Shown: piece by piece, positions 20,313 to 36,952 of the stretch | How the letters are laid out: every line of letters begins with the position of its first letter | Numbering within the stretch: position 1 is the stretch's first letter | NCBI RefSeq assembly: GCF_001552735.1 | Contig: NZ_BCRT01000021.1 | Location: 186,001-250,000 of the forward strand | Length of the DNA: 64,000 nucleotides | Source: Sanguibacter suarezii NBRC 16159 | GTDB lineage: Bacteria > Actinomycetota > Actinomycetes > Actinomycetales > Cellulomonadaceae | Direction of reading: 5' to 3' | The notes under the pieces: generated by a model | Told to the model about the DNA's origin: nothing | The model's input: only the letters and a program-made list of their open reading frames with translations | Databases searched by the model: none | Program-made: the position numbers and the translations under genes

Positions 20313-21812
20313 CTAGCCCCCGATGACCAGCAGCCAGTCCTCGTCTCCCCCGGCATTCTCACCGGGGGTGGTGAGCTCCTCCGCGAGCGCGGTGTCCTGA
20401 CGCGCGCCGGACACGGGGTCGACCCACGCCGCGCTCACCCCCGGAGCGAGCCGGGACAGGTCCAGGGTGATCGTCCGGGCCGTGGGGACGTAGACCACGG
20501 CCAGGGACCCGTCCTCAGAGATCGCCGCGGTGGCCCAGTCCGACTCCAGGACGTCGGCGTAGCCGTCCTCCTGCGTCCCTGCGGTGACGGCTTCCCCCTG
20601 CCCGTCGACGAGGAAGGTCCCGTCAGCGTCCGGCACGAGGGTCCACCACGGGAAGGAACGGAACAGGTCCACGGCGACGGTCTGCTCGGCGATCGCCTGG
20701 GTCTGGCGCACGTCCTGCCACGGCGGGATGAACTGCCAGATGTGACGCTCCCCGTAGGACACGCCCACCCCGCCCGAGGTCAACGTCCACAGGGTCTGGC
20801 GACGCAGGCTCTCGTCCGTGGTCTCCGGCCCGCCCTCGTTGTTCTCGTTCTCGTAGTTCCCCTCGATGAGCACGACCGGACCTGTGCCGTAGGTGTAGGC
20901 CCGCAGCACCGTGTCGTAGGTCGGTTGGTAGGTGTAGGCCAGCTCGATCTGGGACACCCCGCGCCAGTCGACGTTGTCGTGGCTGGTGGACGGGTTGAAC
21001 AGGTGGACCGTCACGAGGTGCTCGTCGCCCGCGGAGCGCAGCCCGTCGATGAAGGACATCATCATCGGGTCATAGGTGTCCCAGTCGACCTCGTCGTAGT
21101 CCATGCCGAGCATCCACACGATCCCGGGGGTGTCGGCGTACCGGGCTCCCAGCGCCTCACCGAGCTGCGCGGCGAGGCTCTCGTCGTAGTCGTAGCCGTT
21201 CTCCTCGAAGCCCCAGGTCAGGCCGATGGGAGCGATGAACACAGTGATCCCGAGGCTGGCCGCGGTCGCCAGGATCGCGTCGAACCGTTCCCAGTACTCC
21301 TCGTTGAGGTTCGCGACGGTCCCGTCGAAGGGCTCAAGCCCGTCGATCGTCTGCCGGGAGTCCGTGTCCACCCCGCTCCACGGGAAGGGATGCATGATGA
21401 CCCCGTTGAAACCCTGCGAGGCACGGAGGGCCAGGTGCTCGTCGATCTCCTGCGGGGTGAGCGTCTGCATGGCCGACCAGACCGCCTCGGCCCGCAGCAG
21501 CAGCGGGTCCCCTGCCTCGTCGACGAGGTAGCGGCCGTCCTCGCTCACCCCCGAGACCAGCTGCACCAGCCCCGGTGCCGCTGGCGGCTCGGGTGATGGC
21601 GGCGAGTCCGTGGTCCCGGCCTCGGGCGAGGTGGCGGACGGCGTGGCGCTCGAGGCGTCCGGATCGGGCGTCGCGCCGCCGCCGCAGCCGGCCAGCACCA
21701 GCGTCAGCACGAGGGCCAGGGCGACGGTGACCGGCCGCGCGAGAGCCGACGCGGCGAGCGGGCGTGTCCGTGCGGGCGAGGTGACGGCCGACGTTGTCTT
21801 CGCGAGGTGCAT
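20313..21812 (-). CDS. DUF4038 (apiosidase-like) glycoside hydrolase lipoprotein
   Basis: A 499-residue exported lipoprotein. Residues 1-45 form a signal peptide with the lipobox LVLAGC, followed by a Ser/Thr/Pro linker. From about 85 the DUF4038 TIM-barrel-like domain begins (GRYLVDEAGDPLLLRAEAVW, ASQGFNGVIMHPFPW, LGITVFIAPIGLTWG, GIVWMLGMDYDEVDWDTY, VVLIEGNYENE). The C-terminal sandwich (YADVLESDWATAAISEDGSLA) is the domain often annotated as putative collagen-binding. Relatives include plant-glycan apiosidases, so a glycan-trimming role at the cell surface is plausible; the substrate is unknown. I start at the ATG at 21810-21812, which precedes a normal signal peptide. It is divergent from the GT4 gene. 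Confidence 0.82.
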   Translation of the reverse strand: MHLAKTTSAVTSPARTRPLAASALARPVTVALALVLTLVLAGCGGGATPDPDASSATPSATSPEAGTTDSPPSPEPPAAPGLVQLVSGVSEDGRYLVDEAGDPLLLRAEAVWSAMQTLTPQEIDEHLALRASQGFNGVIMHPFPWSGVDTDSRQTIDGLEPFDGTVANLNEEYWERFDAILATAASLGITVFIAPIGLTWGFEENGYDYDESLAAQLGEALGARYADTPGIVWMLGMDYDEVDWDTYDPMMMSFIDGLRSAGDEHLVTVHLFNPSTSHDNVDWRGVSQIELAYTYQPTYDTVLRAYTYGTGPVVLIEGNYENENNEGGPETTDESLRRQTLWTLTSGGVGVSYGERHIWQFIPPWQDVRQTQAIAEQTVAVDLFRSFPWWTLVPDADGTFLVDGQGEAVTAGTQEDGYADVLESDWATAAISEDGSLAVVYVPTARTITLDLSRLAPGVSAAWVDPVSGARQDTALAEELTTPGENAGGDEDWLLVIGG

Positions 21813-21949: not shown

Positions 21950-23011
21950 GTGCCGCACCTGACGATCGCCACGCACGCCTCGGCTGCCCCGATGGGCCAG
22001 CAGGTCTACGAGGAGGAGCTCGCCCACCGGGCGCAGAGCGCGCTGGGGGCAGATGCCGTGGTCACCCGGGTCATCGCGCGCAGCCTGCGGTCAGACCTCG
22101 CCGGGAACACCCGGCTCCCCGAAGGGGTGCTCCGCACGGCGCCGGCCGTCGTGCGCCGCGCCGTCGGCGCCGCCGTCTACCCCCGGGCCGACGTCGTGCA
22201 CCGGATGAGCCTGGCGCTGCCGCCAGCGCGGGTGCCGGAGATCCTCACCCTGCACGACACCGTCTCCTGGCGGTTCCCGGACGAGTCGCCGCCCGAGCCG
22301 CACGCCGTCCGGGAGGCACGCGGGGCGACGGCGGTCATCGCCCCCTCCCAGTTCTCCGCGGACGACGTCGGTGAGCTGTTCGGCCTCGACCACGTCCACG
22401 CGATCCCCAACGGCGTCGACCCCCGGTTCCTGGACGCACCCCCGCTCGACGCCGCCGCGCTGCAGGCCCTGGGAGTGACCGGTCGCTACGTGCTGCACGC
22501 CGGCGGGTCCACCCTCCGCAAGAACCTCGAGGGCCTGGCGGTCGCGTGGCCGCTGGTGCGCAGCGCCTGCCCGGACGTCACGCTGGTGCTCAGCGGACCG
22601 CCGTCGCGCCGGCGCCACGCCTTGTTCGCCCACCTGCCCGGCACGGTCCTGGTGGGCAGGGTCCCGGCGGTCGACGTCCCCGGTCTGATCGCCGGCGCCG
22701 AGGCCGTCGTGGTGCCCTCGGTCCACGAGGGCTTCGGGCTCCCCGCCCTGGAGGCGATGGCCGCCGGGGTCGTGGTCGTGGCGGCCGACCGGTCCTCGCT
22801 TCCCGAGGTGTGCGGTGGCAGCTCGATCCTCGTGGAGCCGGACGGCCCGGCGATCGCCGACGGTCTGGTGCACGCGCTGGGCGGCGGTGGGGAGATCGAC
22901 CGCCTCACCGCGGCAGGAAGAGCCAGGGCCGAGCAGTTCACCTGGGAGGCCAGCGCCCGCGAGCACGCTGAGGTCTGGCGACGGGTGCTGGCCGCGACGA
23001 ACCAGCCCTGA
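21950..23011 (+). CDS. Glycosyltransferase, GT4/GT1-like (GT-B)
   Basis: Cytosolic GT-B transferase of 353 residues that adds a sugar from a nucleotide donor to a lipid-linked acceptor. The N-terminal half is short; the C-terminal half shows HAGGSTLRKNLEGLAVAWPLV and VVVPSVHEGFGLPALEAMAAG, the donor-site E-x7-E motif of GT4. The GTG at 21950 with GGAG five bases upstream is chosen over a longer open frame. It is the first gene of a plus-strand block continuing to wzt, wzm and three more transferases. The stop codon falls in a 13-bp tandem duplication. The sugar is unknown. Confidence 0.88.
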   Translation: MPHLTIATHASAAPMGQQVYEEELAHRAQSALGADAVVTRVIARSLRSDLAGNTRLPEGVLRTAPAVVRRAVGAAVYPRADVVHRMSLALPPARVPEILTLHDTVSWRFPDESPPEPHAVREARGATAVIAPSQFSADDVGELFGLDHVHAIPNGVDPRFLDAPPLDAAALQALGVTGRYVLHAGGSTLRKNLEGLAVAWPLVRSACPDVTLVLSGPPSRRRHALFAHLPGTVLVGRVPAVDVPGLIAGAEAVVVPSVHEGFGLPALEAMAAGVVVVAADRSSLPEVCGGSSILVEPDGPAIADGLVHALGGGGEIDRLTAAGRARAEQFTWEASAREHAEVWRRVLAATNQP

Positions 23012-23078: not shown

Positions 23079-24296
23079 GTGCAGCAAAGCCCTGAACCTG
23101 CCATCCGAGTCATAGGTCTTGGCAAGACCTACCGGATCGGCCTGTCCGGCGACCGCCCCACGACAGCGGTCGAGGCTGCGCTGCGCAAGATGCGCAACCC
23201 GGTCCGCAAGGGGTCGCACACGCTCTTCGACGCGCTCGACGACCTGACCTTCGACGTCCCCTGGGGCGAGGCGATGGGGATCATCGGCCGCAACGGCGCG
23301 GGAAAGTCGACCCTGCTCAAGGTCCTCACCCGCATCACCGCACCCAGCCGCGGACGGATCGAGCTCAACGGACGGATCGGGTCGCTGCTGGAGGTGGGCA
23401 CCGGCTTCCACCCCGAGCTCACGGGCCGGGAGAACATCTACCTCAACGGCTCCTTGCTGGGGATGACCCGCAAGGAGATCCAGCGCCGCTTCGACGAGAT
23501 CGTCGACTTCGCCGGGGTCGCGACCTTCTTGGACACCCCGGTCAAGCGCTACTCCTCGGGGATGTACGTGCGCCTGGCCTTCTCCGTCGCCGCACACCTG
23601 GAGACCGAGATCCTCGCGATCGACGAGGTGCTCGCCGTGGGTGACGCGGAGTTCCAGGCCAAGTCGCTGGCCAAGATGCGCGACGTCGCCAAGGACGGCC
23701 GCACCGTCCTGTTCGTCAGCCACCAGGCACAGACCGTCGCCGCGCTGTGCACCTCCGCGGTCTTCCTCGACCGCGGCCACCTCGCCTATCACGGGCCGGT
23801 GGCCGGCGCCTTCGACCTCTACCGGGACAGCTTCGAGAAGTTCTCCCTCGAGCAGAAGGACTCCAGCACCCGTCCGGGCACCGGCGAGCTGCGTGCCCGG
23901 TCCGTCGAGATGGGCGCGGACCACTTCGAGCCGGCGGGCGAGAAGACCATCCACATCTCGCTCGACGCCAACCCGGAGATGGTCGGGAAGTACTTCGTCT
24001 CCTGCCACATCAACGACCTCAACGGCAGCGTCCTCATCCAGTGCGACTCCCGCGTGGTGGGCGGCTGGTACGACCCGACGCGGACCCAGGAGGTCACGCT
24101 CACGGTGCGCACCCCGTGGCTCAAGCCCGGGCGCTACACGGTGGACCTCTACGTGTGCAAGAACGGGATCCTCGACTCCTGGGAGGGTGCGGTCGGTTTT
24201 GAGGTGCTCCCCCACAACCCGTACCCCGAGCTGGCCGGGGACGAAGCGCTCACCCGAGGGCTCGTGCTCGGCGACTTCCACTACAAGAACGGCTGA
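23079..24296 (+). CDS. wzt: Polysaccharide ABC exporter, ATPase subunit (Wzt/TagH type)
   Basis: ATP-binding subunit that drives export of a finished lipid-linked polysaccharide together with the permease encoded next. The 405 residues contain Walker A GIIGRNGAGKSTLLKVL, the Wzt-type GRIGSLLEVGTGFHPELTGRENIYLNG, the signature KRYSSGMYVRLAFSVAAH, Walker B ILAIDEVLAVGD and the switch SHQ. From about residue 265 there is a C-terminal beta-sandwich (to WEGAVGFEV) like the Wzt carbohydrate-binding domain, which reads the glycan end-modification before export. The GTG start has only a weak ribosome site. Three bases separate it from wzm. Confidence 0.93.
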   Translation: MQQSPEPAIRVIGLGKTYRIGLSGDRPTTAVEAALRKMRNPVRKGSHTLFDALDDLTFDVPWGEAMGIIGRNGAGKSTLLKVLTRITAPSRGRIELNGRIGSLLEVGTGFHPELTGRENIYLNGSLLGMTRKEIQRRFDEIVDFAGVATFLDTPVKRYSSGMYVRLAFSVAAHLETEILAIDEVLAVGDAEFQAKSLAKMRDVAKDGRTVLFVSHQAQTVAALCTSAVFLDRGHLAYHGPVAGAFDLYRDSFEKFSLEQKDSSTRPGTGELRARSVEMGADHFEPAGEKTIHISLDANPEMVGKYFVSCHINDLNGSVLIQCDSRVVGGWYDPTRTQEVTLTVRTPWLKPGRYTVDLYVCKNGILDSWEGAVGFEVLPHNPYPELAGDEALTRGLVLGDFHYKNG

Positions 24297-24299
24297 GCG

Positions 24300-25109
24300 A
24301 TGCCCACGACGGTGATCACGCCTCCCGGCCGCGTCTCCATGCCCAACCTGCGCGAGCTGTGGCAGGCGCGGGAGGTCCTCTACCAGTTCGGCATGCGCGA
24401 CGTCGTGCTGCGCTACCGGCAGACGGCCGTCGGCATCATCTGGGTGCTGCTCCAGCCGCTCGTCTCCGCCGGCATCTTCTCGATCGTCTTCGGGTCGGTC
24501 GCCCAGCTCTCGAGCGACGGCGTGAACTACTTCGTGTTCAGCTTCGTGGGCATGCTCGCCTGGAACCTGTTCAACAACATCATCACCCGGTCGACCAACT
24601 CCATCGTCAGCAGCCAGGCGATGATCTCCAAGGTCTACTTCCCCCGGATGCTCGTGCCCATGTCCGGCATCTTGTCCGTGCTGCTCGACTTCGCGATCGC
24701 GCTCGGTCTCGGCTTCGTCCTCCTGCTCATCTACGGGATCAACCCCGGGTGGCCGGTGCTGCTGCTGCCGATCTGGGTGGCGCTGCTGGTGCTCCTGGCC
24801 GCGGGGATCGGGCTGGCTGCCTCAGCCGTCATGGTCAAGTACCGCGACGTCGCCTACGTCGTCCCGTGGATGCTGCAGACCCTGCTGTTCGCCTCGCCGG
24901 TGGCCTACGCCGTCCCCAAGGACCTCCAGACCCTGTACAACCTCAACCCCCTGACGTGGTTCCTCGAGCTGTTCCGCTACTCCCTCGTGGGGCTCCCGGC
25001 ACCGGAGCCGTGGAAGATCGCCGCAGCGGTCGCCGTCTCCGTGGTGGTGTTCGTCGGCGGGGCCTTCGCCTTCCAGCAGTTCGAGCGCGAGTTCGCGGAC
25101 GTCATCTGA
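24300..25109 (+). CDS. wzm: Polysaccharide ABC exporter, permease subunit (Wzm/TagG type)
   Basis: ABC-2 type permease of 269 residues with six predicted membrane helices, pairing with the preceding Wzt-like ATPase. The N-terminal amphipathic region RELWQAREVLYQFGMRDVVLRYRQT and the helices starting VGIIWVLLQPLVSAGIFSIVFG are characteristic, as is the C-terminal LNPLTWFLELFRYSLVG. It would move a lipid-linked glycan across the membrane. The next gene starts inside its stop codon (TGATG), so the block is translationally coupled. Confidence 0.93.
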   Translation: MPTTVITPPGRVSMPNLRELWQAREVLYQFGMRDVVLRYRQTAVGIIWVLLQPLVSAGIFSIVFGSVAQLSSDGVNYFVFSFVGMLAWNLFNNIITRSTNSIVSSQAMISKVYFPRMLVPMSGILSVLLDFAIALGLGFVLLLIYGINPGWPVLLLPIWVALLVLLAAGIGLAASAVMVKYRDVAYVVPWMLQTLLFASPVAYAVPKDLQTLYNLNPLTWFLELFRYSLVGLPAPEPWKIAAAVAVSVVVFVGGAFAFQQFEREFADVI

Positions 25110-26035
25110 TGCGGACCACCGCCTACGTGCTGGCCGCCGACCCGGCTTTCCTCACCGAGAGCCTGCTCGCGTACTACCCGCACGTGGAGCGGATCGTGGT
25201 GTCCTACGACGAGAACGCCCGCTCGTGGACCGGCACACCGCTGCCGGTCGAGGAGTGCCTGCAGGCCATCGCCCGGCTGGACACCGCCGGCAAGTGCGTC
25301 CTGGCCCCCGGGCACTACGCCCGGCTGGACCACGACCCTCTCGACAACGACACCTTCCAGCGCCAGTGCGCCCTGGACCAGGCCTCCGAGGACGCCGACT
25401 GGGTCGTCCAGCTCGACACCGACGAGGTCATGCCGCGCCCGGACACCTTCCTGCGGACCCTGCACCATGCCGACGCCGCCGGCGCGGGCGGACTGGAGTT
25501 CCCCTCCCGATGGCTCTACGCCCAGGTGGGCCCCGGGACCTACCTCGAGGCAGCGACCCGGTCTGGTCGTCTGGCAGCGAACTACCCCGGCCCCCTCGCC
25601 ATCCGCGCCGGGGCCGACCTGCGGCTGTGCCGCCAGTCGGACACGCCGCTGTACCGGGTGGACGTCCGTCCGTGGAACTCCGACCCGCTCCACCCGCGGG
25701 ACGTCGTGGTCCATGAGGTGATCCCCGAGTCGCATGCCGTGGTGCACTTCAGCTGGGTGCGGTCAGAGGCCGCCATGCGCGCGAAGTTCGGATGGTCCGG
25801 GCACACCGCTGAGTACTCCGAGCCGGCCGTGTACTCGCGGTGGAAGTGGCGCAAGGACCATCCCCGCGCCGCGGCGCTCACCTCCCGCCTGCGCGGGGAG
25901 GAGTGGTACCGCATCGCCCGGATCAGCGATCCACCGATCAGCGCGCCTGTCGCGCACAGGGCGCCCACCGGGCCCACCGGCCGCCCTGCCGGTGCCCGGG
26001 CAACCGCTCCGACGACTCCCCGGGATCTGCGATGA
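25109..26035 (+). CDS. Glycosyltransferase-like protein (GT2/GT92-related)
   Basis: A 308-residue predicted cytosolic protein. It starts TTAYVLAADPAFLTESLLAYY, has IVVSYDEN instead of the usual GT2 LVDDGS, and a DXD-type metal site WVVQLDTDEVMPRP near residue 108. A later segment VHEVIPESHAVVHFSWVRSE resembles the end of GT92/Glyco_tranf_2_4 families, which often act on glycans attached to proteins or lipids. The C-terminal 30 residues are Pro/Ala/Thr-rich. The start overlaps the wzm stop and the end overlaps the next start by ATGA. The family call is from motifs only and the donor is unknown. Confidence 0.7.
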   Translation: MRTTAYVLAADPAFLTESLLAYYPHVERIVVSYDENARSWTGTPLPVEECLQAIARLDTAGKCVLAPGHYARLDHDPLDNDTFQRQCALDQASEDADWVVQLDTDEVMPRPDTFLRTLHHADAAGAGGLEFPSRWLYAQVGPGTYLEAATRSGRLAANYPGPLAIRAGADLRLCRQSDTPLYRVDVRPWNSDPLHPRDVVVHEVIPESHAVVHFSWVRSEAAMRAKFGWSGHTAEYSEPAVYSRWKWRKDHPRAAALTSRLRGEEWYRIARISDPPISAPVAHRAPTGPTGRPAGARATAPTTPRDLR

Positions 26036-27144
26036 CGCCCGGTCCTCAGGTCTCGGTCGTCGTGCGCGGTGGCGACAGCCCCGCGCTCCTCGTCACCTGC
26101 CTGGAGCACCTCGGCGCGCTGCGCACCGCCCCGCACGAGATCATCCTCGTCGACCCGGGAACCGACGAGAGCACCCGGCACCTCGTCGCGGAGAAGTTCC
26201 CCGACGTCGTCCACCTGCGTCCCCCACGCCGCCCCGGACGAGCCCAGACCCCCTGGCAGGCAGGGCTGTCCTACGCGAGCGGGGACGTCGTGGCCTTCCT
26301 CGGCGGCGACACCCGCGTGGACGAGTTCTGGCTCGATGCGCTGACCACCCACTACGCCGACCCGGCCGTCTCCGCGGTCGGTGGCAGGGTCGTCTCCGCC
26401 AGCCCGGCGTCGCGTGGGCCCCACGCCGTCCACGCGGCCCGGGCGGACGGCGAGGCCCTGGCGGCCCACGAGGCGACGACAGGCCTCGCCTCGATCGGCC
26501 GCGTCCTGCCGAGCGGGGAGCTGACGAGCTTCTTCGGTGCCGACCCAGGCCGCCCGGTCGAGGTGGACCACCTGCCGACGGCAAACCTGTCCTTCCGCAC
26601 TGCGGCGCTGGCATCGGTCGGCGGCTTCCGGGCGCCCGGCCCAGGGACCACGGACCACGACGCCACCGACGCGGCTCTGCGCCTGAGCGCTGCCGGGCAC
26701 CGGCTGGTCTTCACCCCGCAGGCGATCACGCGGCGGGACACGGCAGCCGAGGCTCCCGGTCGCACCGACCTCCGCCACCTCTTCGGCACACGCCGGGACC
26801 ACCTGATCCTGCTCACCGGTGCGTACGGGTGGAGGCACCCGCTCGTGCGCCGGTACCCGGCCACCACGCTCCGCGACCAGCACCGTCACCTCCGCGCCGC
26901 CTATCGGCTGCTCCGCGCCAGGCCCGACGACCACGGCTCCCGCCCCCCGCTCCACCGGCGGGCCATCTGGCCGGTGATCTTCACCCGGTCGGTCGCCGAG
27001 CTCGCCGGCCTCGCCGCCGGGACCCTCGCCGCACTGCAGCTCCGCTCAGGACACGGCTCGGGTCACCGCTCAGGACACGGCTCGCGCCACGGCTCGCGTC
27101 ACGGCTCAGGGCACCGCCCCGTCGCGACGGACCCCGGCTCATGA
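26032..27144 (+). CDS. Glycosyltransferase family 2-like, with Gly/His/Ser repeat tail
   Basis: A 370-residue GT2-like protein: QVSVVVRGGDSPALLVTCLEH at the N-terminus, IILVDPGTDESTRHLV, GDVVAFLGGDTRVDEFWLDAL at the metal site, and SVGGFRAPGPGTTDHDATDAALRLSAAGH in the acceptor region. The usual LDDD metal motif is replaced by LGGDTR, so only one acidic residue sits at its core. The C-terminus ends in a 12-bp-unit repeat coding Ser-Gly-His-Gly and Ser-Arg-His-Gly blocks. The start overlaps the previous stop by ATGA and the stop overlaps the next start likewise. Activity and sugar are uncertain. Confidence 0.75.
   Translation: MTPGPQVSVVVRGGDSPALLVTCLEHLGALRTAPHEIILVDPGTDESTRHLVAEKFPDVVHLRPPRRPGRAQTPWQAGLSYASGDVVAFLGGDTRVDEFWLDALTTHYADPAVSAVGGRVVSASPASRGPHAVHAARADGEALAAHEATTGLASIGRVLPSGELTSFFGADPGRPVEVDHLPTANLSFRTAALASVGGFRAPGPGTTDHDATDAALRLSAAGHRLVFTPQAITRRDTAAEAPGRTDLRHLFGTRRDHLILLTGAYGWRHPLVRRYPATTLRDQHRHLRAAYRLLRARPDDHGSRPPLHRRAIWPVIFTRSVAELAGLAAGTLAALQLRSGHGSGHRSGHGSRHGSRHGSGHRPVATDPGS
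27043..27114 (+). repeat. 12/24-bp in-frame tandem repeat coding a His/Gly/Ser tail
   Basis: Two 24-bp copies (27043-27066 and 27067-27090, both beginning CGCTCAGGACACGGCTCG) are followed by two 12-bp half units (27091-27102, 27103-27114). They code four-residue blocks of Ser, Gly or Arg, His and Gly or Arg at the end of the GT2-like protein, giving about six histidines in 25 residues. Confidence 0.85.
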
Positions 27145-28286
27145 GGCCGCACACCCACCTGATCACCCCCGGCGACCACTACTCCCCCGGCACAGGCAGC
27201 GCGGTCCCCACCGTCGTGCACGGGCTGAGCGCAGCCACCCCGGCAGAAGAACCTCTCCCGGCGGTCCTCGTCGCGCGCGGCACCTACCCCGACCGCTACC
27301 CCAGCGCCCAGGCCATCGAGTACCCCCTGATCGCCCCTCGCCGTCACGACCGCTATGCCGACCTGGCACTGGGCCGCGTCGGCCTGGGACGGCCAGGTGC
27401 CCGCCGGGTGCTGGCCCCTGCGCTCACTGCCCTGGAGACTCCGCAGAAGTGGGCGGACACGGTGGTGCTCGCGCACAACCTGCCGCAGGCGATCCCCCTC
27501 GTCGACAGCCGCCACGTCCCCGTCCTCTACGCCCACAACCAGCTGCTGCGCACCTACACCGCCCGCGAGCTGCGCGTGGCTCTGGACCCGGTGGCCGTGA
27601 TCGTCTGCGTGAGCACGGCCCTCGCCGCCACCACCGCCGAGCAGCTGCCCCCCGCGCTGCGCGGGCGCGTCGCGGTGGTCCGCAACGGCGTCGACGCCGC
27701 GGCCTTCGCGAGCGGTCCACGGCCGCAGCGGTCGACGCTGCGCGTGGTGTTCATCGGGCGGACCATCCGGGAGAAGGGACCCGACGTCCTCGTGGACGCC
27801 GTCGCACGCCTGGGTCGCCCGGACATCGAGCTGCTCGTGGTGGGCAGCACCGGCTTCTCCGCCCGCGACCCGCTCACCCCCTACGAGCAGGGGATGCGCC
27901 GGCGGGCCGTGGTGCCAGGAGCCCGCATCACCTTCCGCCCCTTCGTCGACCGCGCCGAGATCCGCACGATCCTCGCCGACTGCGACGTCGTCGTCGTGCC
28001 CTCACGGTGGGCTGAGCCCAGCGGGCTCACCGTCCTGGAAGGCATGGCCGCGGGGGCCGCGGTCATCGCCTCCGAGGTCGGCGGCATCCCGGAGACCGCT
28101 GGCGACGCGGCCGTCCTCGTCCCGCCGTCCGACGTCGCCGCCCTGGCGGCCGCCCTCGAGGCGCTCGCCGACGACCGCGCCCTGCTGGCCCGCACCGCCA
28201 CCCTGGGGCGCCAGCACGCCGAAGGCAACACCTGGCGCACCGCTCGTGACCGGTTGGGGGTGGTGCTGGGCGAGCACACCCGCTGA
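27141..28286 (+). CDS. Glycosyltransferase family 4
   Basis: GT-B retaining transferase of 381 residues. The N-terminus (HLITPGDHYSPGTGSAVPTVV) has the Gly-rich acceptor loop. The C-terminal domain shows VVFIGRTIREKGPDVLVDAVARL and VVVPSRWAEPSGLTVLEGMAAGAAVIASEVGGIPE, with the E-x7-E donor motif. VYAHNQLLRTYTARELR and VVRNGVDAAAFA are usual GT4 elements. It overlaps the previous gene by ATGA and is followed after 83 bases by the asparagine-synthetase-like gene on the same strand. Confidence 0.88.
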   Translation: MRPHTHLITPGDHYSPGTGSAVPTVVHGLSAATPAEEPLPAVLVARGTYPDRYPSAQAIEYPLIAPRRHDRYADLALGRVGLGRPGARRVLAPALTALETPQKWADTVVLAHNLPQAIPLVDSRHVPVLYAHNQLLRTYTARELRVALDPVAVIVCVSTALAATTAEQLPPALRGRVAVVRNGVDAAAFASGPRPQRSTLRVVFIGRTIREKGPDVLVDAVARLGRPDIELLVVGSTGFSARDPLTPYEQGMRRRAVVPGARITFRPFVDRAEIRTILADCDVVVVPSRWAEPSGLTVLEGMAAGAAVIASEVGGIPETAGDAAVLVPPSDVAALAAALEALADDRALLARTATLGRQHAEGNTWRTARDRLGVVLGEHTR

Positions 28287-28369: not shown

Positions 28370-29845
28370 ATGAGCCGGATGGACCTGACCGATCACCGTT
28401 ACCTCGCCGGCCAGTTCGTCGCCGGCCCGCGGGCCGTCACCGACGACCACCTCACCCGCACACTGACCTTCGCCGACCTGCACCTGACCGTGCACCCCAC
28501 CCTGCGCACCACCCGTGCCCAGCACGGGGAGACCGACCTGCTCATGCTCGGCACCGCGGTCCACCCCGAGCACCCCACCTGGCGCGACAGCGACGTGCTC
28601 GAGTGGCTCGCCCTGGCGGCGACCCCCGCCGAGCTCGAGGAGACCATGGCCGCCCTCGCCGGGCGCTACGTGCTCTTCGTGCGGATCGGCTCGCAGGCAC
28701 CCCTCGTCTACGGCGACGCCTGCGGTCTGCGCCCCGTGTTCTACCTCCGGTCGGGGACAGACCTGTGGCTGGCCAGCCAGCCCGGCCTGCTCGAGCGTCA
28801 CGCCGGGGCGCTGCGCGACGTCCTGCTCGCCCCGCTGCTAGACGCCTCACCCGAGGGCGACGTCTGGCCTGCGGGACGCACCCCGCTCACCGGCGTCCAG
28901 ATGATGCTCCCGAACCACCGGCTGAGCACCGACGACGCCGTCGTGACCCGGTTCTGGCCCTCGGCACCCCTACCCACGGTGGACCCGGAGGTCGCCGCGC
29001 AGCGGATGGCCCGGCTGCTGCGCGGCATCGTGCTGAGCCTGGTTCGCCGCGGACCCGTGACGATCCTGCTCACCGGCGGCTACGACAGCCGCGCCCTGCT
29101 CGCCGCCGCCTGGCCGGTCCGGCGTCGCCTGCGCTATCTCACCGTCGTCGACGTGGCCACCCCCTCCCACGACGCCTCCATCCCGCTGCGGCTCGCGATG
29201 CGGGGCCGGCTCAAGCTGCGCTTCCGGTGGAGCCGGCCCGCCTCGTCGCACGCCCTCGGGCGCCAGCGCGCGGTCACCGGGCAGGTGTGGCGCGACCCGA
29301 ACCAGCACCGGGACGTGGCCTTCAGCGCGGCGCTGGGGACCACCGCGCTCATCGCCAACGCCTCCGAGGTGGTCCGGTGCGCCTTCTACGAGGGCGGGAA
29401 CCCGCCCGAGACCATCTCCGCCGAGCTGCTCAGCGAGTATCACGGGTGGGCCCAGGACCCCTTCGCGATCGAGGCCTTCGAGCACTGGCTCGCCGGAGTG
29501 CCCCAGGGCACCGGCATCCACCCGCTCGACCTCTACTACTGGGAGTGCCGCGTCGGGGTGTGGGGAGCGCTCAGCGCGATCTCCATGGAGCTGCAGGTGG
29601 ACGCCTTCTCCCCGTTCAACTGCCGGGAGCTGCTCATCACCGGTCTGGGCACCCCGGTCACCTCCCGCAAGCATCCGTGGCTGCTGCACCGCCGGATCGT
29701 GGAGATCCTCGCACCGCAGATCTCGACCATCCCGTACAACGCCACGACCTTCACCTGGCTCAAGACCCGCCTGCCGGCTCCGGTGCGCCAGTCCGTGCGC
29801 CGGCTGCGCCGTCGCGCAGCCGGCAGCGACCTGACCTACCGCTAG
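28370..29845 (+). CDS. Asparagine-synthetase-like protein lacking the glutaminase cysteine
   Basis: A 491-residue relative of class B asparagine synthetase. The N-terminal part keeps the outline of an Ntn glutaminase domain (LAGRYVLFVRIG near 97, LVYGDACGLRPVFYL near 112, LWLASQPGLLE near 132). However, it starts MSRMDL rather than Met-Cys, so it has no N-terminal cysteine nucleophile. The synthetase part has a PP-loop ILLTGGYDSRALLAAA near 232-247, expected to bind ATP and adenylate a carboxylate. Known relatives without the cysteine include beta-lactam synthetase and lasso-peptide cyclases; others amidate uronic acids in polysaccharides. Placement at the end of an exporter and glycosyltransferase block suggests glycan modification, which is inference. 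Its stop codon overlaps the convergent GT2 stop. Confidence 0.75.
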   Translation: MSRMDLTDHRYLAGQFVAGPRAVTDDHLTRTLTFADLHLTVHPTLRTTRAQHGETDLLMLGTAVHPEHPTWRDSDVLEWLALAATPAELEETMAALAGRYVLFVRIGSQAPLVYGDACGLRPVFYLRSGTDLWLASQPGLLERHAGALRDVLLAPLLDASPEGDVWPAGRTPLTGVQMMLPNHRLSTDDAVVTRFWPSAPLPTVDPEVAAQRMARLLRGIVLSLVRRGPVTILLTGGYDSRALLAAAWPVRRRLRYLTVVDVATPSHDASIPLRLAMRGRLKLRFRWSRPASSHALGRQRAVTGQVWRDPNQHRDVAFSAALGTTALIANASEVVRCAFYEGGNPPETISAELLSEYHGWAQDPFAIEAFEHWLAGVPQGTGIHPLDLYYWECRVGVWGALSAISMELQVDAFSPFNCRELLITGLGTPVTSRKHPWLLHRRIVEILAPQISTIPYNATTFTWLKTRLPAPVRQSVRRLRRRAAGSDLTYR

Positions 29846-30958: not shown

Positions 30959-31909
30959 GTGACCGAGCTGCCTGAACCGACTCCCTCCGCAGCGGTGGGG
31001 GCCGAGCCCGCCGACGGGCTCCCGCTGGTCTCCGTGGTCGTGGCGACCGACCGTGGAGGGAGCTTCCTGGCCGAGGCCCTCACCTCGGTCGCGGAGCAGA
31101 CCTACCCGCGGGTGGAGACCGTGCTCGTCGACGACGGGTCCACCGCCCCGGCCGCCCTGCGAGAGATCACGGACCGCTTCCCTGACGTCCGCGTCCTGCG
31201 CCAGGACAACGCCGGGGTGTCGGTGGCCCGCAACTTCGGGGTCAGCCACACCAGCGGTGACCTGCTGGTCTTCCTCGACGACGACGACCGCTGGCACCCC
31301 GAGCGCCTCGCGCGCCAGGTCGCGGCGCTGCAGCGCCAGCCGGCGGCGGTGCTCAGCTACTGCGGCATGCGGACCATCGACGCCGCCGGACGGGAGCTGG
31401 TCGCGGCCGACCAGCTCCAGGTCCGCGACGTCCACGACGTGCTGCGGCGTCGCACGGGGATCATCTTGCCCAACGTCATGGTGCGTCGGGAGACCTTCTT
31501 GCGGGTCGGCGGGTTCCACCCCTCCTTCCGCCGCGCCCAGGACCTCGACCTCGTGCTCAAGGTGGCCCTGGAGGGCGACTTCGTCTTCGTGGAGGACACG
31601 CTCGTCGACTACCGCCACCACGGCAGCAACAACACCCGCCGTCACCGTGAGCTGTGCCGCAGCATCGACCACGTGGTCCGCCTGCACATGTGGAACGCCC
31701 AGGAGAAGGGTCGTACCGACCTGGTCCCCGACTACCGGGCGAGCCTGGAGGCCAACGACCGGTTCGCCGCGTGGAGCGCGGCTCGGGCGTCGCGACGTCT
31801 CGCCGACGAGCGCGCCTATCTCGCGGCGGCGCGGGAGATCAGCTGGGCTCTCCGGTTCGCCCCCGGTGCTCCGGTCAGCTGGCTCAAGCAACGGATCCGC
31901 CCGAGCTGA
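30959..31909 (+). CDS. Glycosyltransferase family 2
   Basis: A 316-residue GT-A transferase with VSVVVATDRGGSFLAEALTSV, VLVDDGSTAPAALREI, the metal-binding FLDDDDRWHPERL, RVGGFHPSFRRAQDLDLVLKVALEG and a C-terminal basic end. All core GT2 residues are present. The GTG start is preceded by AGGAGG with good spacing. It stands alone on the plus strand. Its last 26 bases overlap the end of the convergent pyruvyl transferase gene, so the two transcripts are antisense at their ends. Confidence 0.9.
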   Translation: MTELPEPTPSAAVGAEPADGLPLVSVVVATDRGGSFLAEALTSVAEQTYPRVETVLVDDGSTAPAALREITDRFPDVRVLRQDNAGVSVARNFGVSHTSGDLLVFLDDDDRWHPERLARQVAALQRQPAAVLSYCGMRTIDAAGRELVAADQLQVRDVHDVLRRRTGIILPNVMVRRETFLRVGGFHPSFRRAQDLDLVLKVALEGDFVFVEDTLVDYRHHGSNNTRRHRELCRSIDHVVRLHMWNAQEKGRTDLVPDYRASLEANDRFAAWSAARASRRLADERAYLAAAREISWALRFAPGAPVSWLKQRIRPS

Positions 31910-33278
31910 CGGCCGCGGCCACCCGGTCCGCGGGCGGGGCCCCGCCGCCCCAGCGCTCCACCAGCCGGTCGAGATCGACCAGGCCGCGCAGCGCGTGGGT
32001 CCGGGCGGCCTGGACGGCCGGCGCCGTACGACGCTCGGTCCCCTCCTGCTCGGCCTGGGCGCGTGCGACGAGCTCGAGGAGGTCAGGAGCGGCAAGGGTG
32101 CGGGCCTCCAGGACGTGCTCGTCCAACCCCATGGTGTGCATGAGCGTGCGGACCTTCGTCCGGTCGAGGACGGCGATCGGCGCCCTGCCGACCATGAGCG
32201 CGGTGACGGCGTTGTGGAACCGCGACCCGACCACCGTGCGGGCGCCGGTCAGCACCGGCACCTGCTCGGGCAGCGACGTCGCGTGGACCGTGGTGACCCG
32301 ACCGGCGTCGCTGCCCAGCCGGGCACGGGCCTCCTCGGCCACGAGGTCCACCGCGAACCGGTCCGCGACGTCCCCGGCGAAGATCACGACGTCCTGCCCC
32401 TGGCGCACGAGCGTGGTGGCGGTCTCCACGAGGGCCGCGAGGTAGGGGTCCTGCGGGCTGAGGCGCCCGTCGCTGCGCCGGAGCCAGTCGAAGGCCATGA
32501 CCCCCAGGGCCACCAGAGGCCGGTCGGTGGTGTCGGTGGTGGCCACGTCGTCGGAGGTGGAGTCCACGCTCGTCGAGTCGGCGTCCAGGAAGGTCGCCGC
32601 GAAGACGAGGTCTGCCACGACGAGGTCGTCGCGGTGCCCGCCGCCCATCCGCGCGAGCGCCGTCTTGCTCGCCTCGTCCCGGAAGGACCGTCGCTCGGCC
32701 CGCCGCATGGCCGCGACCACGAGCGCCCGCTCCACGCGGGTGGGCAGCATCGTGCCACCGACTCCCACGAAGGCCAGCCGGTGCGAGCCCAGGCTCGAGG
32801 CGAGGGAGACGAGATAGAGGTCGGCCATGGCTCGCCACCCGCGTCCCCCGACGGTGGACTCCGCCTCGAAGATGCCGCAGCCGAGCACGACGACGGCGTC
32901 GACCGAGCGCAGCGTGGTCCACGTGCTCGCGGCCTCCCGCGCCAGGCGCCAGGCGCGCGCGCCGACCGATCGCACGGCGCCGGGGAGCACGAGCGCCAGG
33001 TCTGCCCCGCGTCCTCGTCCGGACCGCGCCGCCGGCTGCGTGGAGACCGTCGGGACCCCGAGCCGCTCGGCGACGGCGGCGGTCTGCGGCCCGTAGGTGA
33101 TGAGCCGGAGGTCGAGGTCCGGGTGCGTGGCACGCAGATGCTCGACGGCGACGGCAGCGGTCGCGTCGTTGCCGGTGTTGCCGGTGCCGAAGCCGCCGTA
33201 GAGCCCTACCCGCAGCGGACGCCGCCCTGCCCGTCCTGTGCCCTGGTCAGCTGCCGCGTCTCGGCGACGGGAGAGCAC
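31884..33278 (-). CDS. Polysaccharide pyruvyl transferase family protein
   Basis: Transfers pyruvate from phosphoenolpyruvate to a sugar as a ketal, giving a negatively charged surface glycan. The 464 residues begin with the family motif RVGLYGGFGTGNTGNDATAAV, and near the C-terminus carry ARTVVGSRFHNAVTALMVGRAPIAV, the conserved RFH element. A Ser/Thr/Asp stretch (DADSTSVDSTSDDVATTDTTD) forms an inserted loop near residue 235. The GTG at 33276-33278 begins one base after the PIG-L stop, so it is co-translated with the deacetylase and cytidylyltransferase genes. Confidence 0.85.
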   Translation of the reverse strand: MLSRRRDAAADQGTGRAGRRPLRVGLYGGFGTGNTGNDATAAVAVEHLRATHPDLDLRLITYGPQTAAVAERLGVPTVSTQPAARSGRGRGADLALVLPGAVRSVGARAWRLAREAASTWTTLRSVDAVVVLGCGIFEAESTVGGRGWRAMADLYLVSLASSLGSHRLAFVGVGGTMLPTRVERALVVAAMRRAERRSFRDEASKTALARMGGGHRDDLVVADLVFAATFLDADSTSVDSTSDDVATTDTTDRPLVALGVMAFDWLRRSDGRLSPQDPYLAALVETATTLVRQGQDVVIFAGDVADRFAVDLVAEEARARLGSDAGRVTTVHATSLPEQVPVLTGARTVVGSRFHNAVTALMVGRAPIAVLDRTKVRTLMHTMGLDEHVLEARTLAAPDLLELVARAQAEQEGTERRTAPAVQAARTHALRGLVDLDRLVERWGGGAPPADRVAAAVSSGGSVA

Positions 33279-33279
33279 G

Positions 33280-33918
33280 TCAGGCTCCCACGGCCAGGAC
33301 GGCCTTGCGCACGACGAAGCCCTCGGCGTACCGCTGGCGGCACTCGATCCCGCGCAGCCGCATGATGCTCAGGAAGGTCTCCTCGTCCCACCAGTCCCGG
33401 CCCACCTGCGAGGGGTAGCACGCGGTGAGCAGCTCGACCTTGCGCAGGGCGTTCTCCCGGCTGACAGGCACATAGTGCGTGACCGGGCGGAGGTCACCGT
33501 CCCACTTGGGGATCTCGTACTCCAGCACGAGCGCGTCGCGCCAGACCGTCGTCACCAGCTCGGCCACGAGCCGGTGGTCCTGGTGGGCGTCGTCCCGGCT
33601 GGGGCACAGCACGAGGTCCGGGCTGATCTGCCGGGAGAGCTGCTCGAGCCCGGCCTTGGACTCCCCCCAGTGAGCCGGCAGCCGGCCGTCCGGCAGGTCC
33701 CAGAACCGCACGTCCGCCCCGGGGACGAAGGCGGCCGCTGCGGCGCGCGCCTCCTCGCGCCGGGTGGGTGACCCGGTCAGGGTCGCGAAGGTCGCACGCA
33801 CCTCTCGCTGCGCCCCGAGCTCGAGCAAGAACCCGCCGCAGGCGATCTCGATGTCGTCGGGATGCGCGCCCAGGCACAGGATCTCGACCCGCCCAGGTGG
33901 CAGCCCGAGGGCGATCAC
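33280..33918 (-). CDS. PIG-L family N-deacetylase
   Basis: Zinc-dependent deacetylase of 212 residues in the LmbE/PIG-L family, which removes N-acetyl groups from sugars or related amines. Metal ligands are visible in ILCLGAHPDDIEIACGG (AHPDD, residues 16-20) and in SRDDAHQDHRLVAELV (HQDH). The GTG at 33916-33918 overlaps the cytidylyltransferase stop (GTGA). Coupling to that gene suggests it acts on the same sugar nucleotide, or on the sugar after transfer. The substrate is not known. Confidence 0.9.
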   Translation of the reverse strand: MIALGLPPGRVEILCLGAHPDDIEIACGGFLLELGAQREVRATFATLTGSPTRREEARAAAAAFVPGADVRFWDLPDGRLPAHWGESKAGLEQLSRQISPDLVLCPSRDDAHQDHRLVAELVTTVWRDALVLEYEIPKWDGDLRPVTHYVPVSRENALRKVELLTACYPSQVGRDWWDEETFLSIMRLRGIECRQRYAEGFVVRKAVLAVGA

Positions 33919-34796
33919 AGGCCGCCGCCGGACAACCGGGACATCCACCCGCTCGGCCGCGGCAGCGGTGCCACCTCCGGGACGTCGACGACCGGCACCC
34001 GCTTCCCCGGCGCCGGGGGCGGCGGCGCCCACACCGCCCACGGGCACTGGCCGGTGCGGTACAGCTCCTCGAGCTGGGACCGTTCTTTCAGGGTGTCCAT
34101 CGGCGCCCAGAACCCGTCGTAGCGGACGGCGCGGAACCGGCCGTCCTTGGCCGCGCGGATGCACGCGTCCATGACGAGGTCCTCGCCCTCCCCGAGGTAG
34201 TCGAAGATCTCCTGGCGCAGCACGAAGAACCCGCCGTTGATCCGCATCTCCATGTCAGCGACCGGCTCGATCCCCTTGAGCATCCCGTCCGCGTCGATCT
34301 TCACCACGTGGAAGGAGTCCTGGGGATCGACGGCGAGCAGGGTGCCGACCGCGTCCGTGGCCAGGAAGTCCTGGACGATCTCGTCCATCGGGGCGTCGGT
34401 GAGCACGTCGCCGTAGTTGGCCAGGAACACCTCGTCGTCGTCGAGATAGCGGCGCACGCGCCGCAGCCGCTCACCGATCGCGGTGTCCATCCCGGTGTCG
34501 ACGAAGGTGATGCGCCACTCGCTGATGTCGCTCGAGAGCAGCTCGACGTCCTGGCCGCCCTTGGTGAGCACGAAGTCGTTGGAGTGCGTCTCCTGATACT
34601 CCAGGAAGTAGTCCTTGACGGCACGCGCGCCATATCCCAGGCACAGGATGAACTCCGTGTGCCCGTAGTGCGCGTAGTACTTCATGATGTGCCACAGGAC
34701 CGGGCGCGAGCCGATGGGCATCATGGGTTTGGGCAGCGACTCCGTGCCGGACCGCATCCGCATGCCCAGCCCTCCGCAGAACAGCACGACCTTCAT
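33915..34796 (-). CDS. Sugar-1-phosphate nucleotidyltransferase, glucose-1-phosphate cytidylyltransferase (RfbF) family
   Basis: Makes an NDP-sugar, CDP-glucose in characterised RfbF. The 293 residues show VVLFCGGLGMRMRSG with LPKPMMPIGSRPVLWHIMKYY, TFVDTGMDTAIGERLRRV, LANYGDVLTD, the INGGFFVLRQEIFDYL substrate segment and RYDGFWAPMDTLKERSQLEELY. All of these align with RfbF. A Pro-rich C-terminal tail of about 35 residues is extra. No clear CDP-glucose 4,6-dehydratase (RfbG) is nearby, so the nucleotide and sugar remain open. It overlaps the aminotransferase stop by ATGA and the PIG-L start by GTGA. Confidence 0.85.
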   Translation of the reverse strand: MKVVLFCGGLGMRMRSGTESLPKPMMPIGSRPVLWHIMKYYAHYGHTEFILCLGYGARAVKDYFLEYQETHSNDFVLTKGGQDVELLSSDISEWRITFVDTGMDTAIGERLRRVRRYLDDDEVFLANYGDVLTDAPMDEIVQDFLATDAVGTLLAVDPQDSFHVVKIDADGMLKGIEPVADMEMRINGGFFVLRQEIFDYLGEGEDLVMDACIRAAKDGRFRAVRYDGFWAPMDTLKERSQLEELYRTGQCPWAVWAPPPPAPGKRVPVVDVPEVAPLPRPSGWMSRLSGGGL

Positions 34797-36223
34797 CGTT
34801 CCTCCAGCAGCTCAGCCGTCCCCAGCTCTGGGTCAGGCAGACGGCGCGGCGCGGCGCGCTCACGCATGGACGGAGCCACCGCGCGTCCGCGCAGGAAGCC
34901 GTCGGTGGTGGCCGCGTCGATCGCTCGGGCGTAGACCGCCAGGGCTCCTCGGGCGGCCTCGATCGTGTGCTCGATGTCAGCGTCGGTGTGGGCTGCGGAG
35001 ACGATGAGGGACTGAGCCAGAACGCCGCGGTCGAGCAGCTCCTGGATGAACAGCGTCCGCATCGCCTGCGAGGGGTTGCCCTCGTGGTCGCGGGTGCCGA
35101 ACACCATGCAGGACCCGCGCCCCATGATCGTCACCGCCTCGGTCAGGCCTTCGTCGGCGATCACCGCGGTGAGCCCGGCGCGCAGCGCCTCCCCCTGCCG
35201 CTCCATGATCCCGACGACGTCCCGCTCGGCGTAGGCGTCGGTGGCCGCGAGGTATGCCGCCAGGCCGGTGGTCTCCGCGCCGTGCGTGGTGGACAGCAGG
35301 AAGGGCCGGGCCGCGTCGGTGTTCAGCCCACCGAGCTCCATGAGGTCGCGGCGCCCGGCGAGGGCGGAGACGGAGAACCCGTTCCCCAGCGCCTTGCCCC
35401 AGGTGGACAGGTCCGGGGTCACCCCGTAGACGGCCTGCGCCCCACCGGTCGCCCACCGCATACCCGTGATCATCTCGTCGAAGACGAGGACGAAGCCGTA
35501 GGCGTCGGCCAGGCTGCGCAGCCCTTCCAGGAAGCCTGGGGCGGGCTCGACGGTCGCGGTGGCCTGCTCGAGGATGAGTGCGGCGATCTGCCCCGGGTGG
35601 GCGGCGAGCAGGTCACGGACGGAGTCGAGGTCGTTGAAGCGGAAGCTCACCGTGAGGTCACGGTGGGCGCGGGGCACCCCGGCAGCCATCGCGGTGGAGC
35701 CGATGAACCAGTCGTCGGTCGAGAAGAACGGCTGGGTGCCGCAGACCGCCACGAGCTCGCGTCCGGTCGCTGCCCGAGCCAGCTTGATCGCGGCGGTGGT
35801 GACGTCCGAGCCGTTCTTGGCGAACTTGACCATCTCCGCGCCGGGCACCAGCTCGACGAAGCGTTCCGCTGCACGCAGCTCCCAGATCGTGGGGCGGGAG
35901 AAGTTCACGCCGTCGCGCGCGGCGCGGGTGACGGCGTCGACCACCGGGGCGTAGCCGTGCCCCAGGGTGACCGAGCGCAGGCCCATCCCGTACTCCACGT
36001 ACCAGTTGCCGTCGAGGTCCTCGACGCGTGCGCCGTCTCCCCGTGCGATGACCGGCGCCATGTTCTCGGGGTACTGGTCCGACCCGCGGGCGTAGGTGTG
36101 CGAGCCGCCGGGGACGAGCTCGTGGAGCCGTCGCTGGGCGACGACGGACCGGGCGAAGCTGCGCCGGGGTGCCGCGACGGGGGTGGTCCAGGCGCGGGGG
36201 ATGGGGAAGTCGTGGTCAGACAT
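34793..36223 (-). CDS. Class III PLP aminotransferase (glutamate-1-semialdehyde aminomutase-like)
   Basis: Fold-type I PLP enzyme of 476 residues. It has LVPGGSHTYARGSDQYPENM, VKFAKNGSDVTTAAIKLARAATGR, the PLP aspartate in FVLVFDEMITGMRWATGG (Asp249) and the Schiff-base lysine in STWGKALGNGFSVSALAG (Lys277). The similarity is to HemL, but the position beside cytidylyltransferase, PIG-L and SDR genes points to a sugar aminotransferase rather than haem synthesis. It is the first gene of the minus-strand block and is divergent from the epimerase gene, sharing a 112-base promoter region. Confidence 0.85.
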   Translation of the reverse strand: MSDHDFPIPRAWTTPVAAPRRSFARSVVAQRRLHELVPGGSHTYARGSDQYPENMAPVIARGDGARVEDLDGNWYVEYGMGLRSVTLGHGYAPVVDAVTRAARDGVNFSRPTIWELRAAERFVELVPGAEMVKFAKNGSDVTTAAIKLARAATGRELVAVCGTQPFFSTDDWFIGSTAMAAGVPRAHRDLTVSFRFNDLDSVRDLLAAHPGQIAALILEQATATVEPAPGFLEGLRSLADAYGFVLVFDEMITGMRWATGGAQAVYGVTPDLSTWGKALGNGFSVSALAGRRDLMELGGLNTDAARPFLLSTTHGAETTGLAAYLAATDAYAERDVVGIMERQGEALRAGLTAVIADEGLTEAVTIMGRGSCMVFGTRDHEGNPSQAMRTLFIQELLDRGVLAQSLIVSAAHTDADIEHTIEAARGALAVYARAIDAATTDGFLRGRAVAPSMRERAAPRRLPDPELGTAELLEER

Positions 36224-36335
36224 GCATGCTCCTCGGGGGCTGTGGCGTGCCGTGGTCTGCTGGGTGCCGCATGCGGGATCCGGGGCCGCTGCCGACGCCG
36301 AGGCGCACCTGCGATTCGTGTCCTACGCTGGGCGG

Positions 36336-36887
36336 ATGGAGATCATAAAGACGTCTATTCCGGATCTGATCGTGTTTCAGCCGACTCCGCACCGGGATGA
36401 GCGCGGGTACTTCTCGCGGACCTTCGATGTCGAGATCCTGGCCGACGCGGGCATCGACCCGGCCGGGTTCAAGCAGGAGAACCAGTCCAAGTCCTTCCAG
36501 GGCGTGGTGCGCGGTCTGCACGGCCGGTCCAACAAGGGAGAGGCAAAGCTGGTGCGCTGCGCCCACGGAGCCGTCCTGGACGTCGCGATCGACGCCCGTC
36601 CCGGGTCGCCGACCTTCGGGCAGATGGAGACCTTCCTCCTCGACGACCAGCTGTGCCGCCAGGTCTACATCCCGCGCGGGTTCTTGCACGGCTACCAGGC
36701 GCTGACCTCCGTCACCGACTTCGTCTACCGGATGGACGACTTCTACGGTCCGGGCGAGGACGTCACGGTCAACTACCTCGACCCTGACCTCGCCGTGCCG
36801 TGGCCGGCCCCGATCACCATCGTCAGCGAGCGCGACCGCAACGCGATGTCCTGGGCGGAGTACACGACCATCCTCGGCGTCGGCTGA
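36336..36887 (+). CDS. dTDP-4-dehydrorhamnose 3,5-epimerase-like (RmlC family)
   Basis: Cupin epimerase of 183 residues that inverts C3 and/or C5 of a 4-keto sugar nucleotide. Family residues are present: HRDERGYFSRTFD, the catalytic His in GVVRGLHGRSNKGEAKLVRC, LDVAIDARPGSPTFG, IPRGFLHGYQAL and the Tyr in TDFVYRMDDFY. The start codon region is less GC-rich than its surroundings and the ribosome site is weak (GGGCGG close to the ATG at 36336). No rmlA, rmlB or rmlD is in the window. It may therefore act on the unusual sugar made by the flanking genes rather than on dTDP-rhamnose. Confidence 0.88.
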   Translation: MEIIKTSIPDLIVFQPTPHRDERGYFSRTFDVEILADAGIDPAGFKQENQSKSFQGVVRGLHGRSNKGEAKLVRCAHGAVLDVAIDARPGSPTFGQMETFLLDDQLCRQVYIPRGFLHGYQALTSVTDFVYRMDDFYGPGEDVTVNYLDPDLAVPWPAPITIVSERDRNAMSWAEYTTILGVG

Positions 36888-36952
36888 GGCCGGACTGTCC
36901 ACGGGCCTCGCGCCCGGCCGCCTCACGGTCGTCTCCTGCCTGGTCGTCCAGC

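Follow-up and report, generated by a model that had tools for sequence, protein, structure and literature searches.

The gene at 28370..29845 on the + strand of the window (the whole 64,000-nucleotide stretch of Sanguibacter suarezii NBRC 16159 that was analysed) encodes a 491-residue protein related to asparagine synthetase B (AsnB) that has lost both the glutaminase cysteine and the glutamine-site motifs. In alignments, its relatives carry a signature of their own in the synthetase site (GxDSR, E333/R336 and D387..Y390.E392.R394...W398), and the majority of the close-family loci have a glycan setting. With slightly less than even confidence, the protein is proposed to be an active ATP-dependent ligase of the AsnB superfamily that works without glutamine hydrolysis and joins a glycan carboxylate to an amine that does not come from glutamine. 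Its most likely role is to place this amine on an acidic sugar before export; we infer the adenylation, the uronic-acid-type substrate, the identity of the amine and the timing ahead of export.

Uronic acids of bacterial glycans are known to be amide-linked to small amines or amino acids, and to our knowledge few of these modifications have an assigned ligase. A widespread cysteine-less AsnB subfamily that often occurs with glycosyltransferases, and sometimes with sugar-acid dehydrogenases, is a concrete and testable candidate for such a ligase. A rebuilt active site would show another route away from asparagine within the AsnB fold, beside that of the beta-lactam synthetases.

Gene, predicted fold and the lost glutaminase site

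The open reading frame (28370-29842 without the stop codon) starts with ATG and its translation begins MSRMDL; its assignment to the cysteine-less, GxDSR-type AsnB-like proteins draws on this translation, AlphaFold, Foldseek and VIA comparisons, and the family alignment. An in-frame TGA lies six codons 5' of the ATG and none of the five codons between them is a start, so a hidden upstream Met-Cys start is ruled out. The original prediction that the N-terminal cysteine is missing therefore holds, as no extension up to the TGA could supply a Met-Cys, and the only cysteines in the protein are residues 118, 337, 393 and 418. Codon-position GC (0.717/0.521/0.945) is like that of a real high-GC gene. 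The protein was compared with the other 21 rows of alignment A3, whose 22 rows are this protein plus relatives from 21 of 27 genome_contigs loci. Of the 49 columns with 90% or higher conservation in those rows it retains 38, the PP-loop and charged signature among them; 11 are altered, H137, H326 and H393 included. Leave-one-out counts for the other rows range from 35/49 to 44/44, which places the window protein among the more diverged. With 38/49 conserved columns retained, a decayed gene was rejected as the main reading, and the protein appears from its sequence to be a diverged member of its family, not a broken or evidently decayed one.

An AlphaFold model built from A3 has a mean pLDDT of 84.4 and a pTM of 0.88. 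The best Foldseek match is beta-lactam synthetase (1m1z, E 6.8e-17), followed by carbapenam synthetase 1q15, TsnB9 7ylz, AsnB 1ct9 and human asparagine synthetase. VIA-align was run on the candidates from Foldseek, and nothing is concluded from families missing among them. It gave Z 23.2 with AsnB 1ct9_B (rmsd 3.6, 366 residues aligned), Z 23.0 with carbapenam synthetase 1q15_D (rmsd 4.0, 391 aligned), Z 22.7 with TsnB9 7ylz_A (rmsd 3.9, 412 aligned), Z 21.7-22.0 with beta-lactam synthetases and Z 19.5-19.8 with human asparagine synthetase; LarE and other PP-loop enzymes reached Z 8.9 and below. The model thus predicts a two-domain AsnB fold, and the AsnB-type fold with a remnant of the glutaminase domain, which had been expected from the sequence, is borne out by the model and its Foldseek and VIA matches.

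Direct sequence searches find little of this relationship. No Pfam family matches the protein at E up to 10, and the only NCBIfam match at E<=10 is TIGR01536, at E 0.0022 and 17.1 bits, far under the cut-off of 267.1. The WbpS-type model TIGR03108 is not among the NCBIfam matches at that threshold, its presence in the library being unconfirmed, and phmmer against PDB sequences returned one irrelevant match. The family as a whole aligns with 12 canonical AsnB sequences by hhalign (probability 98.75, E 1.5e-16, residues 91-312), so that the likeness to AsnB (PF00733/TIGR01536) extends over fold, PP-loop and profile homology. Among solved structures, the 22-row profile A3 matches TsnB9 best (E 1.9e-9), then QueC (9.7e-6) and beta-lactam synthetase (2.8e-5). 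TsnB9, a hydroxyamidotransferase, is a natural-product enzyme. At E<=0.01, nine of the 22 A3 members match PF00733 and one matches GATase_7.

The position of Cys1 in AsnB is taken in the structural alignment by Gly14 (codon 28409..28411, +, from the VIA ranges), with 13 residues ahead of it; VIA pairs residue 14 with residue 1 of 1ct9_B, 6gq3_A, 9b6c_A and 8sue_B, in each case as the first aligned residue only. The N-terminal cysteine is invariant in the 12 canonical AsnB rows, whereas none of the 22 A3 rows begins with Cys or Met-Cys. Similarly, RGPD is found in 12/12 canonical rows and 0/22 family rows and is absent from the window protein. The NGE motif, present in 10/12 canonical rows, is also absent from the window protein, and its occurrence in 5/22 family rows corresponds to a C-terminal VNGE in five rows of the Glycomyces clade.

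The synthetase site and distribution of the family

While the glutaminase site has been lost, the synthetase site is conserved in a form of its own. The PP-loop LTGGYDSR occupies residues 234-241 (29069..29092, +) and corresponds to the SGGxDS pattern, with Arg where canonical AsnB rows mostly show Ser (GxDSR vs GxDSS). In a 39-row family alignment, G237 and D239 are present in 39/39 rows and S240 and R241 in 38/39 each. Of the more distant loci in the class sample, this alignment took in only L037, L038, L039 and L043; it and A3 both leave out L072 and L078, and neither L076 nor L077 enters the counts for the family or its neighbourhoods. The LTGGYDS PP-loop reported earlier thus belongs to a real family, and its conservation among homologues does not indicate decay. 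The remainder of the signature consists of D268 and E333 (38/39 rows each) with R336 (35/39), the latter two in EVVR at residues 333-336 (29366..29377, +), and of the motif D387..Y390.E392.R394...W398 (29528..29563, +), in which D387, R394 and W398 occur in 38/39 rows, Y390 in 36/39 and E392 in 33/39.

A further difference from AsnB concerns a lysine. K520 is invariant among the 12 canonical AsnB rows, but no Lys column is found at 458-465 in the 39 family rows (the best is 7/39, at 462), in a region where the alignment is uncertain and pLDDT is 66-75. The structural alignment stops at model residue 459 and AsnB residue 448, and the next AsnB position, 449, is what we take to be the catalytic Lys449. 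Beta-lactam and carbapenam synthetases have a Tyr-Glu dyad and a Lys in the synthetase site. These enzymes resemble the window protein in their AsnB fold without an N-terminal cysteine and are its best Foldseek matches (VIA Z 21.7-23.0), but they differ in gene setting and apparently also in the lysine, which is unconserved in the family, and in the presumed dyad Tyr, where Asn330 (N in 23/39 rows) was placed by eye. Lacking a conserved equivalent of the AsnB lysine in the alignment, the family may use different chemistry.

The family is patchy and cross-phylum, and includes one archaeon. The window's own genome is part of every count below for which it was searched. P0001 is matched in 2/59 relatives and in 19/396 of the phylum sample, where many of the matches are canonical AsnB; A1 is matched in 21/394 of the class sample at E<=1e-15 and A3 in 5/396 of the phylum sample at E<=1e-25. 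Relatives were encoded in 27/56 candidate stretches from genome_contigs, and the 25 retained belong to Actinomycetota, Bacillota, Pseudomonadota and Myxococcota. Four plasmid records carry relatives, one from the archaeon Natrinema and three from Rhizobium. A viral origin was rejected: one scan of viral_contigs with a single-protein query, suited to close relatives only, found no relative. A 51-row tree (quick search) separates the 39 GxDSR-type rows from the 12 canonical rows with an SH-aLRT of 100. The tree partner of the window protein is a protein from Kiloniellaceae (Pseudomonadota), with support 98 and 30% identity; despite long end branches and the quick tree search, this pairing suggests horizontal transfer.

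Gene neighbourhoods of the window protein and its relatives

The AsnB-like gene closes a run on the + strand that begins with a GT4 glycosyltransferase (21950..23011, +; PF13692 E 4.6e-20, start picked by eye), followed by a Wzt-type ABC ATPase (23079..24296, +; ABC_tran E 3.1e-19; Wzt_C E 4.9e-5 and 23.8 bits, under the cut-off of 30.4), a Wzm-type ABC permease (24300..25109, +; ABC2_membrane E 2.3e-17), a 308-residue protein (25109..26035, +), a GT2 glycosyltransferase (26032..27144, +; PF13641 E 1.8e-9, PF00535 E 9.3e-9) and a second GT4 glycosyltransferase (27141..28286, +; PF13692 E 1.8e-27), which ends 83 bases before the ATG. The gene had been described as following Wzt/Wzm and three glycosyltransferases; this stands for Wzt, Wzm, the GT2 and the GT4, but is unconfirmed for 25109-26032, which matches no Pfam family at E<=1e-4. 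Other genes of the window include GT2 genes and a sugar-modifying run (31887-38197, -) of polysaccharide pyruvyl transferase, PIG-L deacetylase, nucleotidyltransferase, class III aminotransferase and C-methyltransferase. Pyruvyl ketals would be another possible carboxylate for a ligase. An apiosidase-like protein (20316-21812, -; PF13204, E 1.9e-43), which weakly matches a lipoprotein signal, lies at the margin of the glycan genes.

No uronic-acid dehydrogenase scores above cut-off within the window, and the four UDP-Glc/Man dehydrogenase genes above cut-off in the own genome are all outside it. A PF00733 search at E<=0.001 found nothing in this genome, which is rated 100% complete, so the model sees neither the window protein nor a canonical AsnB there.

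The surroundings of 49 homologues, up to about 10 kb on each side, were scanned with profiles alongside 19 control stretches, with L029, L030, L065, L075 and L096 as short loci in the counts. The controls were chosen by hand, not at random, from contigs belonging to the window's phylum, whereas the 35 close-family loci compared with them include other phyla. A glycosyltransferase lies near 21/35 close-family loci and 2/19 controls (Fisher p 0.0004), and Wzm or Wzx near 10/35 and 0/19 (p 0.008), Wzm alone giving 8/35 and 0/19; both p values ignore relatedness, and these counts lean towards the homologues, as the glycosyltransferase and Wzm profiles were seeded from the window and L003 and the Wzx profile in part from homologue loci. 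A UDP-sugar dehydrogenase is near 8/35 close-family loci and 0/19 controls (p 0.023, again ignoring relatedness), with a profile seeded from three of these loci (L058, L073 and L078) that favours the homologue side; Pfam confirms the enzyme in L058, L070, L073 and L078. Among all 49 loci, 29 have a glycosyltransferase, 13 have Wzm or Wzx and 11 have a UDP-sugar dehydrogenase. By the profiles used, no glycosyltransferase was found at 14/35 close-family loci, 20/49 of all loci and 7/10 loci of the Glycomyces clade. The expectation that homologues keep the PP-loop, lack the cysteine and sit beside wzm/wzt is thus supported for the PP-loop, the cysteine (0/22) and, in 8/35 loci against 0/19, Wzm, although the setting is not universal. 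Wzt was dropped as a neighbourhood marker, because its profile catches general ABC ATPases (7/35 close-family loci, 8/19 controls).

Individual loci give a more detailed picture. Pfam identifies a UDP-Glc dehydrogenase in the Ornithinibacillus locus, directly downstream on the opposite strand in Desertihabitans, and at greater distance in Exiguobacterium. In the Serinicoccus locus, a UDP-GlcNAc 2-epimerase ends right before the open frame of the homologue and a UDP-Glc/Man dehydrogenase is also present (both by Pfam). The Kiloniellaceae locus has Wzx- and Wzy-type genes together with a canonical AsnB. Bordetella petrii has capsule genes upstream (Pfam), and downstream (L053, 11282-14909), after KpsC/S-type capsule genes, a 712-residue protein without a Pfam match and a PLP-dependent decarboxylase (PF00282). 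The decarboxylase is two genes downstream of the homologue and is a possible local source of amine. No glycan gene is among the neighbours scanned in L057, L063 and L074, although a GT4 lies further away in L063. The Epim2, GxSxG, PAPS and KpsC/S profiles, and in part those for Wzx and Wzy, were seeded from homologue loci, and their counts lean accordingly.

Several features are not family-wide. In L054, L055, L079 and L080 (Jiangella-type), the AsnB-like protein carries a C-terminal fusion to a protein with a GxSxG motif; such a protein is encoded nearby, unfused, in L058 (8695-9516), L027 (7135-8022) and L075 (9952-11568). Fused or near, it is found in 7/35 close-family loci and is possibly a functional partner; it has no Pfam match (tested on L054), its AlphaFold model from three sequences is poor (pLDDT 42.9), and a profile search found none in the window. 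In the Glycomyces clade, a bifunctional ATP sulfurylase/APS kinase (PAPS synthase) is just upstream in L056, L060, L061, L066, L067 and L068, as called by Pfam for L056 and L061 and by profile for the rest, and no glycosyltransferase was found in those six stretches. The use of PAPS was rejected as a general theme, since among the loci examined PAPS synthase turned up in these six of the Glycomyces clade only. In the Serinicoccus proteins L078 (9395-12118) and L072, the C-terminal half apparently repeats the same domains in degenerate form, as judged by eye.

Proposed reaction and alternatives

In the proposed ligase reaction, ATP and Mg would be bound in the PP-loop domain, which contains GxDSR, D268, E333, R336 and the D..Y.E.R...W motif. 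The carboxylate of a glycan, a lipid-linked glycan or a nucleotide sugar would be activated as an acyl-adenylate and then attacked by an amine, such as an amino acid or small amine, and not by glutamine-derived ammonia. The product would be an amide-decorated sugar made before Wzm/Wzt export, with the former glutaminase domain presumably retained as a scaffold. This reaction is proposed because of the AsnB fold, the conserved PP-loop and signature, the loss of Cys, RGPD and NGE, and the glycan genes around both the window gene and its relatives. It also draws on the sugar-acid dehydrogenases (8/35 loci, and four in the own genome), the Bordetella petrii decarboxylase and a precedent from Campylobacter; it is weakened by the 14/35 loci without a glycosyltransferase, by the unconserved lysine and by the want of a uronic-acid dehydrogenase in the window. 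The precedent, the C-terminal ligase of Cj1438 from Campylobacter jejuni, is presumably not of the AsnB type. As described in PMC11800397, it is an ATP-dependent amide ligase of the capsule that uses serinol phosphate, and it resembles the proposal in joining glycan glucuronate to an organic amine after the sugar has joined the chain. It is possible, with the balance somewhat against it, that the GxDSR proteins as a whole, found in several bacterial phyla and at least one archaeon, are an undescribed class of PP-loop ligases. Acidic sugars of exported glycans would then be linked by them to organic amines or to other nucleophiles, with the glutaminase domain as a scaffold and a synthetase site rebuilt by the Arg of the PP-loop, the lack of a conserved lysine and the D..Y.E.R...W motif.

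Glutamine-dependent AsnB homologues are already known from glycan loci. According to PMC7468200, WbpS and PGN_1234 convert glucuronic acid to a uronamide and WbqG is required for such activity. These enzymes share with the window protein an AsnB-type relationship and a glycan locus, and they act on a uronic acid, as is proposed here. They are described as glutamine amidotransferases, the term used for WbpS in PMC3684757, while the window protein lacks the N-terminal cysteine. Two further sources mention a putative asparagine synthase in a Bordetella locus whose glycan has uronamide groups (PMC12407052) and, in a figure legend on wzm/wzt-type S-layer glycan clusters, wsfA/WsfA (the gene of Paenibacillus alvei) as an 'asparagine synthase homologue' (PMC2943079). 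No description of a cysteine-less AsnB member in a glycan setting was recognised in the portions of the open-licence PMC literature covered. The original statement that no description of such an enzyme was known thus has to be limited to the cysteine-less kind, the glutamine-dependent homologues WbpS/PGN_1234 and WbqG being known (PMC7468200), and what is new is the cysteine-less, remodelled subfamily.

These uronamide-forming homologues (PMC7468200) make it conceivable, if unlikely, that the window protein forms a simple uronamide as WbpS does, with ammonia that is either free or supplied by a separate glutaminase. In the L059 cluster, a canonical AsnB with a glutaminase domain does accompany the cysteine-less protein; however, the own genome has no PF00733 match (E<=0.001) that could serve as such a partner, and the changes go further than the missing cysteine, to a rebuilt synthetase site.

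The rebuilding itself might point to different chemistry, in which the product is an ester or a thioester, or the activated group is not a carboxylate; we consider this improbable. The change of Ser to Arg in the PP-loop (38/39 rows) and the lack of a conserved lysine at 458-465 would be in keeping with this, as would the GxSxG protein and the PAPS synthase in their respective loci, and PP-loop enzymes are mechanistically diverse (PMC6594144). However, the fused and sulfur-gene partners are restricted to parts of the family. The nearest solved folds are, partly from general knowledge of their chemistry, all carboxylate activators that lead to amides or related products.

It is quite improbable that the protein is non-catalytic, binding a nucleotide or an intermediate of the glycan and serving as a regulator or scaffold of the export machinery: the missing cysteine and unconserved lysine would suit such a role, but the Gly, Asp, Ser and Arg of the PP-loop and the charged signature are near-invariant across distant taxa.

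Beta-lactam synthetase and lasso-peptide cyclase are cysteine-less relatives of AsnB, as is carbapenam synthetase, which lacks the cysteine too, and the top Foldseek match is a beta-lactam synthetase. A natural-product enzyme of either of the first two types, placed in a glycan locus by chance, is nonetheless very improbable, as the scanned neighbours are sugar genes. A lasso-peptide cyclase was rejected because PF13471, which we take as the marker of lasso clusters (the partner B protein), matches nothing in the own genome at E<=0.001, whereas 2/14 control genomes match.
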